Part shown: positions 50,349 to 55,737 of the stretch, piece by piece
How positions within the stretch are numbered: position 1 is the first letter of the stretch
How the letters are laid out: each line of letters begins with the position of its first letter
NCBI GenBank assembly: GCA_016192035.1
Contig: JACPUW010000031.1
Span: forward strand, 1 to 58,516
Origin: Bacteroidota bacterium
GTDB lineage: Bacteria; Bacteroidota; Bacteroidia; CAILMK01; JACPUW01
Direction of reading: 5' to 3'
DNA: 58,516 nucleotides
Program-made: the position numbers and the translations under genes
The notes under the pieces: generated by a model
The model's input: only the letters and a program-made list of their open reading frames with translations
Told to the model about the DNA's origin: nothing
Database searches by the model: none

Positions 50349-51439
50349 CAACACAAGGCTGGCTTTATACCCCGCTGCGATTTTATGTATGGCTTTGTTT
50401 TAAGCTGTATTACAAGCGTATAGAAATAGTGGGATTGGAAAATATCCCTAAAAATGGGGCGGTAATCTTTGCCGCCAATCACCAGAATACTTTCCTTGAT
50501 GCCCTACTGATCCATACCCAGCAGCCAAGGGTGCCACATTTCCTTACCCGTGGCGATTTGTTTGCCAATCCCATGGCCAACTATTTTATGCGCAGCCTGA
50601 AAATGAGGCCCATTTTCCGGATACGCGATGGGCTGACCAATGTGAAACGCAACAAGCACACTTTCCAAGAGTGTTTTGACCTGCTCCACCAAGGACATGC
50701 CGTGGGAATTTTTCCTGAAGGAAACCATGACCTTAAGTTCCACTTGCGCCCTCTTCAAAAGGGTTTTGCCAGAATTGTCCATGAAGCCGAGAAACAGCGA
50801 GATTTTGCCCTGGGGGTGGACATCATTCCCACAGGTTTGCAGTACTACGGCAATCAACACGCACGGGCCAAGGTGCTTATACAGTTTGGCAAACCCATCA
50901 ATAGTCGGGATTACCTACAGTGGAAGGACGATGAAAAGGCCTATCACGAGCACCTGGTGGCCGATTTGGCGCAAGCCATGCAAGAGCGCATCCTACATAT
51001 ACCACTTGAGAATTATGATGTGGTGAAAAAGCACTGGATTGACCAACGCGCCGAGTGTGCCACACTAATGGAAACTTTTAACAGGGATAAGGCCATGATA
51101 GAAGGCAGGCCTGCACCTGCCTGCGCCAAGCCACTGCCCCTGCACCCGGCTGCATGGCGCTGGCCAATAATACTCTACGGTGCTATAAATCATTGGGTTA
51201 TCTATCAGCTTTTTGGCATGTTGGTGCGTAGGTTTATCAAAGACAAGGAGTACTATGGTGCCATGAAATTTGTAATAGGTATGATCTATATACCCGTAGC
51301 CTATATCATTCAAACAGGGGTAGTGGCCTGGTGGTGGCCTCAGTGGGCCGGTCTATATTTCTTGTCACTGCCCATTTCTGGTATGGTGTACCGCGACTGG
51401 CTTGCCAAGCGCAAGACCAAGATTTGGCCCTCTACCTAG
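50336..51439 (+). CDS. Lysophospholipid acyltransferase (PlsC-like) with C-terminal membrane segments
   Basis: The protein has 367 residues. The acyltransferase domain has ANHQNTFLDALLI (HxxxxD, catalytic) and GIFPEGNHDL (glycerol-phosphate binding). The family adds an acyl chain to glycerolipids, typically at position 2. An extension of about 120 residues with hydrophobic segments (about 285-350) follows, which is longer than E. coli PlsC. ATG 50336 overlaps the BASS gene. It converges on the symporter, with a four-base overlap of stops. Confidence 0.9.
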   Translation: MAILATQGWLYTPLRFYVWLCFKLYYKRIEIVGLENIPKNGAVIFAANHQNTFLDALLIHTQQPRVPHFLTRGDLFANPMANYFMRSLKMRPIFRIRDGLTNVKRNKHTFQECFDLLHQGHAVGIFPEGNHDLKFHLRPLQKGFARIVHEAEKQRDFALGVDIIPTGLQYYGNQHARAKVLIQFGKPINSRDYLQWKDDEKAYHEHLVADLAQAMQERILHIPLENYDVVKKHWIDQRAECATLMETFNRDKAMIEGRPAPACAKPLPLHPAAWRWPIILYGAINHWVIYQLFGMLVRRFIKDKEYYGAMKFVIGMIYIPVAYIIQTGVVAWWWPQWAGLYFLSLPISGMVYRDWLAKRKTKIWPST

Positions 51440-53142
51440 GCAACCTTTTCCCGTGGCTTCAAGCGTGATACAAGGTATTGGGCCGCAAGTCCAAATACAA
51501 TTACCAAGGCCGCTCCCATCAAAGGCAGCCATAAATAGGCCATCCAATCAAGCCAATAGGCCAAGCCAATAACCACCTGGGCCAGAAGCGCGGCTATGAA
51601 CACGGCAGTGCCACGTATGTAGCGTATGAAAAAACCCACCAAAAAAATACCCAAGATGGTGCCGTAAAACACAGATCCCAATATGTTTACGGCTTCGATG
51701 AGCGAGCCCAGCCCACCCGCAAAAAAGGCAAAAAGGATGGCGTAAAGGCCCCAGAAGGCAGTAAACCACTTGCTCATGCGCAGGTAGTGCTTTTCGCTTT
51801 GACCGGGACGCAAATTGGCCTGATATACATCAATTAGCGTGGTTGAAGCCAGGGCATTTAACTCTCCTGAAGTCGATGACATGGATGCAAACAGGATACA
51901 TGCCAGCAACAAGCCTATGACCCCTACGGGAAACCGCGACAATACAAACTGCAAGAATATATAATTCACGTCGTTGGATTCGGCTCCCGGACTTTGTGCC
52001 CGGATGATTGCCACCGCTTCCTCCTTTATTTTATCGGCTTCCACCTGGTAACCCTTGGCTGCGGCCAACATTTCAATTGCGGCCAACTCATCCCCTATTT
52101 CTTTAAAATTCAGATAATTGCCCAAGGCGCTTTGCTTCAACTCATGCGTTTCCAAATAGGATGATTTCAGTACACCCAGTGCTGCGCCCTGGGGCGAAGC
52201 CTCTGCCTGACCCAGGGCTGCCTTGTTAAAATATATGGGCGGTGCGCTAAACTGGTAAAACACAAATACAAGTATGCCAATGAAAAGGATGAAAAATTGC
52301 ATGGGAATTTTCACGAATCCATTGAATAACAATCCTATCCGGCTTTGAATGATAGGTTGTGGCCCTAAGTAGCGCTGCACCTGGCTCTGGTCGGTGCCAA
52401 AGTAGGAGAGGGCCAAAAAAAAACCACCCAGGAGCCCCGACCACACATTGTATTTGCTATTGGGGTCAAATTCCCAATCCACGGTTTCCAGCCTTCCCAT
52501 AGCCCCGGCCAGGTCTAGGGCATCCAGTAGCCCAATGGAATGGGGCAGCGCCCGCAAGGCAAGCACTGCTGCCAAGGCCATACCCAGCAATATCACGATC
52601 ATCTGGAGCTTGTGGGTATGGGCCACTGCCTTGGTGCCACCAAATACGGTATATATAATTACCAGAATGCCAATGATTAAATTGGTATGGTAAATATTCC
52701 AGCCCAAAATGCTGGAGAGTACAAGTGCAGGGGCATAAACGGTGAATCCAGCCGCCAAACCGCGCTGTATCATGAATAAGGCAGCGCCCATCAAGCGGGT
52801 CTTGTTGTCAAACCTGTCGGCCAAATAGGCATAGGCCGTGAGCACGTTGAGCCGCTTATAGATGGGGATAATAAGGGCTGAAATGACAATCATGGCCAGG
52901 GGCAGCCCAAAATAGAACTGCACAAACCCCATGCCCTTGGTAAAGGCCTGTCCGGGTGCCGACAGGAAAGTGATGGCACTGGCCTGGGTAGCCATTATGG
53001 AAAGGCCTATGGTAAACCACTTTATGGAACTGCCTGAGCTAAAGTACTCTCCTATCGATTGATTGCCCCGTCCCTTGTACAGGCCATAGGCCACTATGCC
53101 CACCATGGACAGCACCAGTACCAACCAATCGGTTACACTCAT
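51436..53142 (-). CDS. Sodium:solute symporter (SSS) family transporter
   Basis: The protein has 568 residues and about 13 hydrophobic segments. WFTIGLSIMATQASAITFLSAPGQAF (TM2/3 region) and SSTSGELNALASTTLIDVYQANLRP (TM8-like, Na+ site Ser/Thr) are typical of SSS. A soluble loop of about 110 residues lies mid-protein (about 290-395). The ATG overlaps the stop of a 31-residue membrane peptide by four bases (ATGA). That peptide in turn follows the PIG-L gene, so the three are translated as a unit. The substrate is unknown; proximity to a PIG-L deacetylase suggests a sugar- or amino-sugar-derived compound, which is inference. Confidence 0.93.
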   Translation of the reverse strand: MSVTDWLVLVLSMVGIVAYGLYKGRGNQSIGEYFSSGSSIKWFTIGLSIMATQASAITFLSAPGQAFTKGMGFVQFYFGLPLAMIVISALIIPIYKRLNVLTAYAYLADRFDNKTRLMGAALFMIQRGLAAGFTVYAPALVLSSILGWNIYHTNLIIGILVIIYTVFGGTKAVAHTHKLQMIVILLGMALAAVLALRALPHSIGLLDALDLAGAMGRLETVDWEFDPNSKYNVWSGLLGGFFLALSYFGTDQSQVQRYLGPQPIIQSRIGLLFNGFVKIPMQFFILFIGILVFVFYQFSAPPIYFNKAALGQAEASPQGAALGVLKSSYLETHELKQSALGNYLNFKEIGDELAAIEMLAAAKGYQVEADKIKEEAVAIIRAQSPGAESNDVNYIFLQFVLSRFPVGVIGLLLACILFASMSSTSGELNALASTTLIDVYQANLRPGQSEKHYLRMSKWFTAFWGLYAILFAFFAGGLGSLIEAVNILGSVFYGTILGIFLVGFFIRYIRGTAVFIAALLAQVVIGLAYWLDWMAYLWLPLMGAALVIVFGLAAQYLVSRLKPREKVA

Positions 53143-53234
53143 GCAAAGGCCTGGCTAAACCAGTGGAACAAAGCAATCAACAAGGCCAGCCAAAACACCA
53201 GCAACAGGTAGAGCCTGGGCATTCCTTTTGGCAT
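53139..53234 (-). CDS. 31-residue single-pass membrane peptide between PIG-L and symporter genes
   Basis: The peptide begins MPKGMPRLY, continues as LLLVFWLALLIALFH and ends WFSQAFA. It is a basic N-terminus followed by one hydrophobic helix and a short tail. It starts one base after the PIG-L stop (TGA-T-ATG) and its stop overlaps the symporter start (ATGA). This packing makes chance unlikely and indicates coupled translation. Small single-helix subunits are known for some membrane transporters, so it may be a symporter subunit or modulator. No family name can be given. Confidence 0.65.
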   Translation of the reverse strand: MPKGMPRLYLLLVFWLALLIALFHWFSQAFA

Positions 53235-53235
53235 A

Positions 53236-55737
53236 TCAGTACTCAATAAGATTTACCAGCAAACGGTAAGCACCCGGAACCCCTGCGGGCAATTGCCTAA
53301 AGAACGACAGGCCGGTGTAGATATATTTCCCTTTGCCGTAGTCTGTTACCAGTAGCAATCCGGTTTGCGCTTCTTCACCGGGGTCTTGGCTTTGCAGCAG
53401 GGGGGTATAGGCATCAGGGTATTTATCGGGAAAGTACAGCCCCCGTTCCTGCACCCAGCCATCAAAGTCGGCCTTTGTTATCTTATTGGGCATGTTGAAT
53501 AAGGGATGTGATGGAGCCAATATATCCATCCGGGCGTTTTCATCGGTTATCCGGTTGCGGCTCAGGCCCAGTTCATATGGCCCCACAAATTCAGCTTTTA
53601 GGCCGCTGCTGGTGTTGTACTGGCAAATCACCTTGCCCCCACCTTCCACATATTCCATAAGCACGCGGTGCAGGTAGTTCATGTTTTCCAGTGTGTTATA
53701 TGCCCTCACCCCCAGCACTATCGTTTGGTAGGCTGTCAGTATGCCCAGGTCTATCTTGTCGGGGTCCAGTAGGCTTACCTCATACCCCAATTGCCTTAGG
53801 GCATTGGGCATTTCATCACCTGCACCCATGATATATCCTATGGCCTGTGCCTTGGGCGATATGCCTACATATACCAAATGGCACGAAGCCTCCGGAAACA
53901 GCACTTGCGGCGGTATATGTGGTTGTTCTACGCGCATCATCGATTGGTTGTAAACCTGTCCTTCTTCGTCCACAAATGCCTTTAGCGTGCCGTTTTGGGC
54001 ATTGGCACCAGGACTAAGACGCAGCGGGACCAATATGATTTCGCCCCGGTAATCAGCTTCTATCTCCACATTGGCGGGGCTTATGGCCCAGCCTGTGGGC
54101 GCTTCCAAGCGCAGGTTGGCCAACAGATAATCGGAATTCACCAAAACCTTAACAACCAGTTCTATATCCTTTCCTGCTGTGGCCACTAACACTTCTTCCT
54201 GAAAATTGATGCAGACCTTAGGCCGAATTTCCAAAGGCCTTCTCTGCTCGCCCAGCGCGCGGTCTTCCCATTTATACGTGATGGGTACCTGCACTTCCAC
54301 ACTAGTGCCGTTCACCTCAAATAGCACCTTGGCCATGTGAAAAGGGCGGTGCTCGGCAAGGCCTATCCATTCTGCGTTTTCTACTTGGTGCAGCCCTCCA
54401 TGGGGAGGGTTCACCAACCAGTAGGGCTGTGAGTACCCATAGTCTTTGGTATCTATGCGCACCTTGCGGGACAGCACTTGGGTGAGCACGTTCAGCGGCA
54501 GTTCGGTGGGTTCCTCTATGTGGTAGGTAAACTCGCCAAAATCGACAAATTTGGTCTTGACCACTGTGCCGCTGCGCTTTACGGCCTGTAGGGTGAAAAT
54601 CAGGGAGTCGCCTGGGCTGGCGTAGTATTGGTCCACCAATACCTCACACCATAGGCCCGCGCACTGCGAAATGATTTCATCAATCCGCTGGCCCATAAGT
54701 GCCTGCCACTTGGGGTCGGATATATCGGCCACCAGGTTTTTTAGCTGGGCAAGCATGGGTATGGACTGCGCCGGATTGCCTGGGTTGTAGGCCGACACTA
54801 TCGCGTCTATGAGCTTGTTGGCCTTGCTGGCCAGGTTGTAATTGCCAAACCTGTACCAGGTAAAATCAATGCCTTCCAATATGTTGCTCTTGGCACTGTC
54901 GCCGGCCAGGTGCTCAAAATATTCCAGGTACTCCCCCCGGTCTATCAGATCGCCAAAACCTTGGGATCGGTGTTGGCTGCGTGCTTTTGATGCCAGTGAA
55001 TTGTAGGACAGGCCCAGCAGGGGATTGTAGGTGCCTACATCCATTTTATACAACTTGCTTTCGTCTATTTCTATGCCCATGCGCTCATACCACCAAATAG
55101 AGGTGTTCCATACCACCCGTTTGGGGCTATGGGGCTTGTACTTGCCGTCGCGCGCATCGCCAAAGGTGAAAGCGGTGCTGCCTGCTGCTTGCAGCGCCTC
55201 TTTGGCCAGTAGGGCAGAGGCGGTGTGGTGCCCATGCCCGGCGTGTTCATCCGGCGGAAACCGAGTGATGATCAGGTCGGGCTGTGTCTGCCGGATCACC
55301 CATACCACGTCTTTCAGTATCTCATTTTGCTCCCACATGCCAAAAGTCTCGGCGGGCGTTTTGGAATACCCAAAATCCACGGCGCGGGTAAAGTATTGCT
55401 TGCCACCATCTATGGCCCTGGCCTGCAGCAATTCCTGGGTGCGCAGTACCCCCAGCAAGTCGGCCTGTTCGGTGCCTATCAGGTTCTGTCCGCCCTCCCC
55501 ACGGGTCAATGCCAGGTAGCTGGTTTCCACTTGCATGCCCTGTGCAAAGTAGGCTATCACCTTGGTGTTCTCATCATCGGGGTGGGCTGCCAGGTACATC
55601 ACGTGGCCCGCCGTTTTCAAACCCTTTATCTTGTGCAGGATGGCTGAGCCCGACAGTTCATGGGTTTGCGACCAAAGGGCGGGCGGCCAGGTAAGCAGCA
55701 AGGCTGCCATGATGGGGATGCGCCGGTATATGCTCAT
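53236..55737 (-). CDS. Large secreted PIG-L family deacetylase
   Basis: The protein has 833 residues. A signal peptide (about 8-24, ending LWSQ) is followed by the PIG-L/LmbE zinc domain: YLAAHPDDENTKVIAYF (His52, Asp54, Asp55) and RFPPDEHAGHGHHTASA (zinc His). The C-terminal 550 residues contain beta-sandwich stretches and a glutamine-amidotransferase-like/Rossmann end part (GYIMGAGDEMPNALRQLGYEV, IVLGVRAYNTLENMNYL). PIG-L enzymes remove acetyl groups from N-acetylglucosamine conjugates. ATG 55737 is preferred because it gives a signal peptide; the upstream part is unrelated. A symporter follows in the same unit. Confidence 0.9.
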   Translation of the reverse strand: MSIYRRIPIMAALLLTWPPALWSQTHELSGSAILHKIKGLKTAGHVMYLAAHPDDENTKVIAYFAQGMQVETSYLALTRGEGGQNLIGTEQADLLGVLRTQELLQARAIDGGKQYFTRAVDFGYSKTPAETFGMWEQNEILKDVVWVIRQTQPDLIITRFPPDEHAGHGHHTASALLAKEALQAAGSTAFTFGDARDGKYKPHSPKRVVWNTSIWWYERMGIEIDESKLYKMDVGTYNPLLGLSYNSLASKARSQHRSQGFGDLIDRGEYLEYFEHLAGDSAKSNILEGIDFTWYRFGNYNLASKANKLIDAIVSAYNPGNPAQSIPMLAQLKNLVADISDPKWQALMGQRIDEIISQCAGLWCEVLVDQYYASPGDSLIFTLQAVKRSGTVVKTKFVDFGEFTYHIEEPTELPLNVLTQVLSRKVRIDTKDYGYSQPYWLVNPPHGGLHQVENAEWIGLAEHRPFHMAKVLFEVNGTSVEVQVPITYKWEDRALGEQRRPLEIRPKVCINFQEEVLVATAGKDIELVVKVLVNSDYLLANLRLEAPTGWAISPANVEIEADYRGEIILVPLRLSPGANAQNGTLKAFVDEEGQVYNQSMMRVEQPHIPPQVLFPEASCHLVYVGISPKAQAIGYIMGAGDEMPNALRQLGYEVSLLDPDKIDLGILTAYQTIVLGVRAYNTLENMNYLHRVLMEYVEGGGKVICQYNTSSGLKAEFVGPYELGLSRNRITDENARMDILAPSHPLFNMPNKITKADFDGWVQERGLYFPDKYPDAYTPLLQSQDPGEEAQTGLLLVTDYGKGKYIYTGLSFFRQLPAGVPGAYRLLVNLIEY

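Follow-up and report, generated by a model that had tools for sequence, protein, structure and literature searches.

A conserved one-helix membrane peptide encoded directly before an SSS/SLC5 symporter, a probable accessory subunit found in Bacteroidota and other phyla

The window, i.e., the whole stretch of 58,516 nucleotides of a Bacteroidota contig (JACPUW010000031.1) that was analyzed, contains an open reading frame (ORF) of 31 codons locked between the genes of a PIG-L deacetylase and of a sodium symporter. Is such a short frame a gene and, if so, which of its two neighbors does the product serve? The product of the ORF is MPKGMPRLYLLLVFWLALLIALFHWFSQAFA, in which the basic residues K3 and R7 and a single hydrophobic stretch match the basic start and single helix described in an earlier note on this DNA. 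The packing was also as that note had described it, read on the minus strand, which it had not specified: the deacetylase stop TGA (53238..53236) is followed by a single spacer base (53235) and by the ATG of the small ORF (53234..53232), and the coordinates confirm the overlap of its stop with the symporter start (Table 1). An alternative start at the ATG at 53222 would give a peptide of 27 residues (MPRLY...), and the copy of a congener (L004, in genome G001) begins exactly at the equivalent position (MPKLY...).

Table 1. Coordinates of the small ORF and of its neighbors in the window.
Feature	Position	Strand	Remarks
Small membrane protein gene	53234..53139	minus	31 codons + TGA; conserved family, dN/dS 0.12 in frame
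SSS/SLC5 sodium:solute symporter, 568 aa, very probable partner	51436..53142	minus	TIGR00813, PF00474, nearest solved structures
PIG-L/LmbE family protein, 833 aa, signal-peptide-like N-terminus	53236..55737	minus	PF02585; frequent, non-obligatory neighbor
ATGA overlap	53142..53139	minus	small-ORF TGA 53141..53139 overlaps symporter ATG 53142..53140

The tight packing had been taken as a sign that the peptide is translated. Packing alone is no proof, and it is the codon-level evidence that argues for translation. All 110 anchored homologues have the peptide frame open, whereas the alternative frames are open in 7 and 43 of them. For 23 disjoint homologue pairs, dN/dS was 0.12 in frame vs. 1.29 and 1.55 in the shifted frames, pN/pS was 0.26 (bootstrap 0.21–0.30) with pN lower than pS in 23/23 pairs, and the differences at codon positions 1, 2, and 3 numbered 140, 87, and 283. 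The purifying selection that the earlier note proposed to look for is thus strong in frame, the pair formed by the window and L004 being uninformative by itself. Judged from sequence, nothing argues more strongly than this codon-level selection that the peptide is made and that it matters, and the small ORF is almost certainly a real gene. The ORF is short and its copy in the window matches no family, as would a frame left open by chance between two genes, but this explanation is refuted by the selection results, and the conservation described below also speaks against it, so that we regard it as extremely improbable.

Among 100 relative genomes, 45 contained the symporter; 44 relatives were assessable, and in 39 of these the orthologous symporter is directly preceded by a small hydrophobic single-helix ORF (the locus of G002 is broken, and the ORF of G090 is cut by a contig break after about 31 residues). 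The ORF was absent before the symporter in the five others, which belong to families f12 (G019, G063, G099) and f14 (G021, G065). A symporter without the ORF was also found in part of family f73, and the ORF is therefore not always required. In f14, the deacetylase and the symporter are kept and the peptide gene is missing (L026/L062 in G065, L024/L063 in G021); the protein encoded between the two in G065 presumably resembles a REP-associated transposase. Eighty loci from named genomes were also fetched, of which 79 were assessable since L124 begins at a contig edge. All 79 contained the ORF, 76 of them just upstream of the symporter. The apparent exceptions were rejected as true absences, as the copies sit further upstream, at about 190 nt in L109 and L126 and several genes away in L130. 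These genomes span Bacteroidota, Myxococcota, Verrucomicrobia, Ignavibacteria, Calditrichia and Aminicenantes, and the carriers include Myxococcus xanthus, another deltaproteobacterium, Chthoniobacterales and Melioribacteraceae. The same frame, sought in other Bacteroidota as the earlier note had suggested, thus occurs there and in several further phyla. In the Flavobacteriales genome of L126, the peptide gene is present a second time in truncated form, some 2 kb upstream of the symporter (L126:706-774).

The members of the family range between 27 and 62 residues. They share a core in which W-x3-Y leads into 22 residues, mostly hydrophobic, that run up to the stop and end with T-x-x-F-x. Counted from W to the stop, this core is 27 residues long in 93 of 110 copies. 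W and Y hardly vary, and a P-P-F-F-K-S stretch often precedes W; the near-invariance of W in the 110 copies is partly by construction, as the W/Y pattern was used to anchor them, and in an unanchored alignment of 37 copies each of the two residues was found at 90% or more. The window copy is a member of a short, divergent branch in which the conserved W is replaced by P. The flank preceding the helix is more positive (+1.55) than the C-terminus (+0.37), which predicts an N-in/C-out topology. The window peptide matched no Pfam or NCBIfam family, as expected by the earlier note, which anticipated that most annotation would overlook it. Scattered Pfam/NCBIfam matches of 37 homologues (one to three members each, E 0.001–1) were judged to be due to chance, and a profile search of the PDB gave no match for the family. 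No description of the peptide was found in the open-access literature, although an earlier description elsewhere is possible, and a review of prokaryotic SSS transporters mentions no accessory subunits.

The symporter exceeds the curated cut-offs of TIGR00813 (202.9 bits, cut-off 184) and PF00474 (122.9 bits, cut-off 22.8), and its nearest solved structures by sequence are NIS, SMVT, SMCT1, and SiaT. Several lines of evidence tie the peptide to it. A profile of the peptide gave 39 strong matches in the 100 genomes, all at the symporter; as most of these loci had served to build the profile, the informative part is that no strong match was found elsewhere in these genomes (E below 1e-4). With the same threshold, no peptide gene was detected beside the deacetylase in the symporter-less genomes among the 100. 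In a set of 296 genomes from the phylum, most of them not used earlier, 85 of 90 peptide-profile matches lay within 100 nt of a symporter match, and the co-occurrence table of peptide and symporter was 87/27/1/181 (Fisher P 2e-49, kinship being ignored). Inspection by eye of 14 "missing" cases revealed a clear ORF below the cut-off in seven and a possible ORF in three. No natural fusion of peptide and symporter was found, the weak profile matches inside long ORFs of G060 and G123 having been inspected; a weak match within a long ORF of G020 was judged to be due to chance.

The deacetylase adjoins the peptide gene in the window and is the upstream neighbor in 61 of the 80 named loci, and the peptide might therefore serve this enzyme or another neighbor, e.g., as a membrane anchor, and merely be co-transcribed with the symporter. 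Against this stand 15 named loci with peptide and symporter but no deacetylase, the reverse being found in none, and five genomes in which the deacetylase lies on another contig and the peptide gene is still with the symporter. We consider such a role very unlikely. As far as gene positions can tell, the peptide gene follows the symporter and not the deacetylase: the placement between these two genes reported at the outset is correct, but the deacetylase is no partner. We thus hold, with good confidence, that the peptide is a functional partner of the symporter.

A partner gene could still act through its translation only, by delivering ribosomes to the symporter start, with an inert peptide as by-product. 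The overlap of the peptide-gene stop with the symporter start is of the same +1 type in 72 of the 110 homologous loci, and such coupling has a precedent in Pseudomonas, where, according to an earlier study, cbrX couples the translation of cbrA (PMC6591292). About a third of the loci, however, show no overlap, and what is conserved is the amino-acid sequence, the helix length, and the positions of W and Y, with the dN/dS given above. Moreover, the gene persists where its link to the symporter start is lost. One genus offers four such genomes (G120, G132, G145, G189; L195–L198), with about 15 kb separating it from the symporter: here the gene is intact and stands by itself next to an SLC13-like gene, and a comparison of three copies shows differences mainly at third positions. 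In the Aminicenantes genome, the deacetylase and peptide genes are followed by bshC, bshB1, and bshA and then by the symporter gene, so that three genes intervene. This retention argues that the protein itself acts. A peptide gene that is a translational leader only therefore appears unlikely from these comparisons, and we leave an inert peptide a slim chance.

The reading that we favor is that the peptide is a previously unannotated one-pass accessory subunit, bound to the symporters of one orthologous SSS/SLC5 group, and we consider it probable in view of the analyses taken together. Through translational coupling at the ATGA, synthesis of the peptide would immediately precede that of the symporter. 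The peptide would insert with its N-terminus inside and its C-terminus outside, and would pack on the symporter as one extra helix, as CbrX does on the SLC5 domain of CbrA and MAP17 on SGLT2. It could then assist the insertion, stability or oligomerization of the symporter, and hence its activity. For modeling, use was made of loci in which both genes lie in one frame, the stops being read as residues so as to give a fusion. The AlphaFold model of the L023 read-through fusion, 632 residues with about 26 of them in the linker, reached a pTM of 0.87, with both parts folded well and the linker disordered. The peptide formed a single helix (20–44) with a core pLDDT of about 94, which for a lone hydrophobic helix is no evidence of binding. 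In a fold search, the symporter part matched SMCT1, NIS, and SiaT with Z of 36–37, i.e., a LeuT-type SLC5 fold; the peptide helix fell outside the aligned ranges of the top matches, which says nothing against a relation. In G012:C56 (L041), the symporter homologue lies within an open frame of 824 codons, suggesting a C-terminal extension.

Many small bacterial membrane proteins are regulators. The peptide might accordingly be an independent regulator, or an insertion or quality-control peptide acting for example on the turnover of the symporter mRNA or protein, with no stable subunit formed; a stable complex does not follow from the strict pairing with the symporter alone. On the other hand, strict pairing and a near-fixed helix length suit a structural partner at least equally, and the complex of CbrX with the SLC5 domain is stable (PMC13022988). 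A role of this kind has, in our opinion, a small but real chance, and the accessory subunit remains the preferred reading.

CbrX is the closest counterpart: this peptide of about 58 residues is encoded in an overlap before the SLC5 transceptor CbrA and was seen bound to the SLC5 domain by cryo-EM in a 2026 preprint, in which it was also dispensable for growth of P. putida on histidine (PMC13022988), which counts against the favored reading. Both systems have a small membrane peptide encoded immediately upstream of, and overlapping, an SLC5-type gene. CbrX is, however, a two-helix hairpin with both ends inside, whereas the present family has one helix, a core of 27 residues and its own W-x3-Y motif, and goes with a free-standing symporter of another SSS branch; the two are set apart here by description. 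MAP17 (PDZK1IP1) is a small single-pass partner of the SLC5-fold human SGLT2/SGLT1 (7vsi, 8hez, 7wmv), but it is eukaryotic and larger, and the PDB profile search indicated no sequence relation. Small membrane protein genes beside SSS/NSS transporters include DUF485 (YjcH), DUF997 (YhdT), DUF4212, DUF3311, and MetS, compared with which the present family is shorter and has one helix. The matches listed for the 37 members include none of these five (for Pfam, the best 25 of 32 weak families). Another very small single helix, encoded by the first cistron before a large subunit, is KdpF of the Kdp potassium pump; its partner is a P-type ATPase complex and no homology with the present family is indicated. 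A DUF3311 gene has been described beside MctP (PMC9100948).

If the favored reading is true, a widespread unannotated subunit would be added to an SLC5 clade with medically important solved relatives (NIS, SMCT, SMVT, SGLT), it would support small helices on SLC5 transporters, such as MAP17 and CbrX, as a general principle, and studies of expression or transport without the peptide would have dealt with an incomplete complex.

As for the substrate, none was found assigned to this symporter group, and gene clusters point to a class, bacillithiol or its fragments. Of the 8 named loci outside Bacteroidota, 5 (L103, L105, L124, L130, L139) have the module clustered with bshA, bshB1 or bshC, and it lies beside these bacillithiol-synthesis genes in Myxococcota, another deltaproteobacterium, Verrucomicrobia, and Aminicenantes (paired loci L130 with L211 for Aminicenantes, L213/L105, L212/L103, L214/L139; also L124). 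In Aminicenantes (L130, L211), the three genes are those lying between peptide gene and symporter. The deltaproteobacterium NP119 carries on one strand DUF2911, bshC, bshB1, bshA, deacetylase, peptide, and symporter; in M. xanthus, bshC, bshB1, and bshA are divergent from the module, and in two Chthoniobacterales a bshB-like gene and bshA are located downstream of it. No bsh genes accompany the module in the window, and among the named loci of Bacteroidota only L117 shows the clustering. Since bshC is nearly universal in this phylum (290 of 296 genomes), co-occurrence is no test of the link there. The secreted PIG-L proteins gave weak scores with Mca (mycothiol conjugate amidase), and the LmbE-like enzymes characterized so far have substrates built on N-acylglucosamine cores, among them precursors and conjugates of bacillithiol (PMC4101496). 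Taking clusters, Mca scores, and this precedent together, we tentatively propose that the symporter serves a bacillithiol-linked salvage or uptake route, in which the exported PIG-L enzyme might process the substrate outside the inner membrane. A further candidate component is a secreted DUF2911 protein (PF11138), which is a neighbor in 38 of the 80 named loci, mostly convergent with and downstream of the symporter (for example in L128, 932 bases on the minus strand, 1757 downstream of the symporter start). Outside Bacteroidota its gene often lies directly upstream of the deacetylase, e.g., L213:16853-17788. The one-helix subunit, a dedicated sodium symporter, an exported Mca/Bca-like PIG-L amidase, and the DUF2911 protein could conceivably form a periplasmic bacillithiol salvage route in several phyla, an idea to which we give less than even weight; it would, if true, be the bacillithiol counterpart of glutathione turnover.

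At the level of single loci, L021 (G050) carries an extra small ORF resembling two helices (MENQIDNSKEINVKGIILLTAV...) between deacetylase and peptide gene, just upstream of the latter, and in L177 (G121) an intact peptide ORF adjoins a symporter with an apparently disrupted frame.
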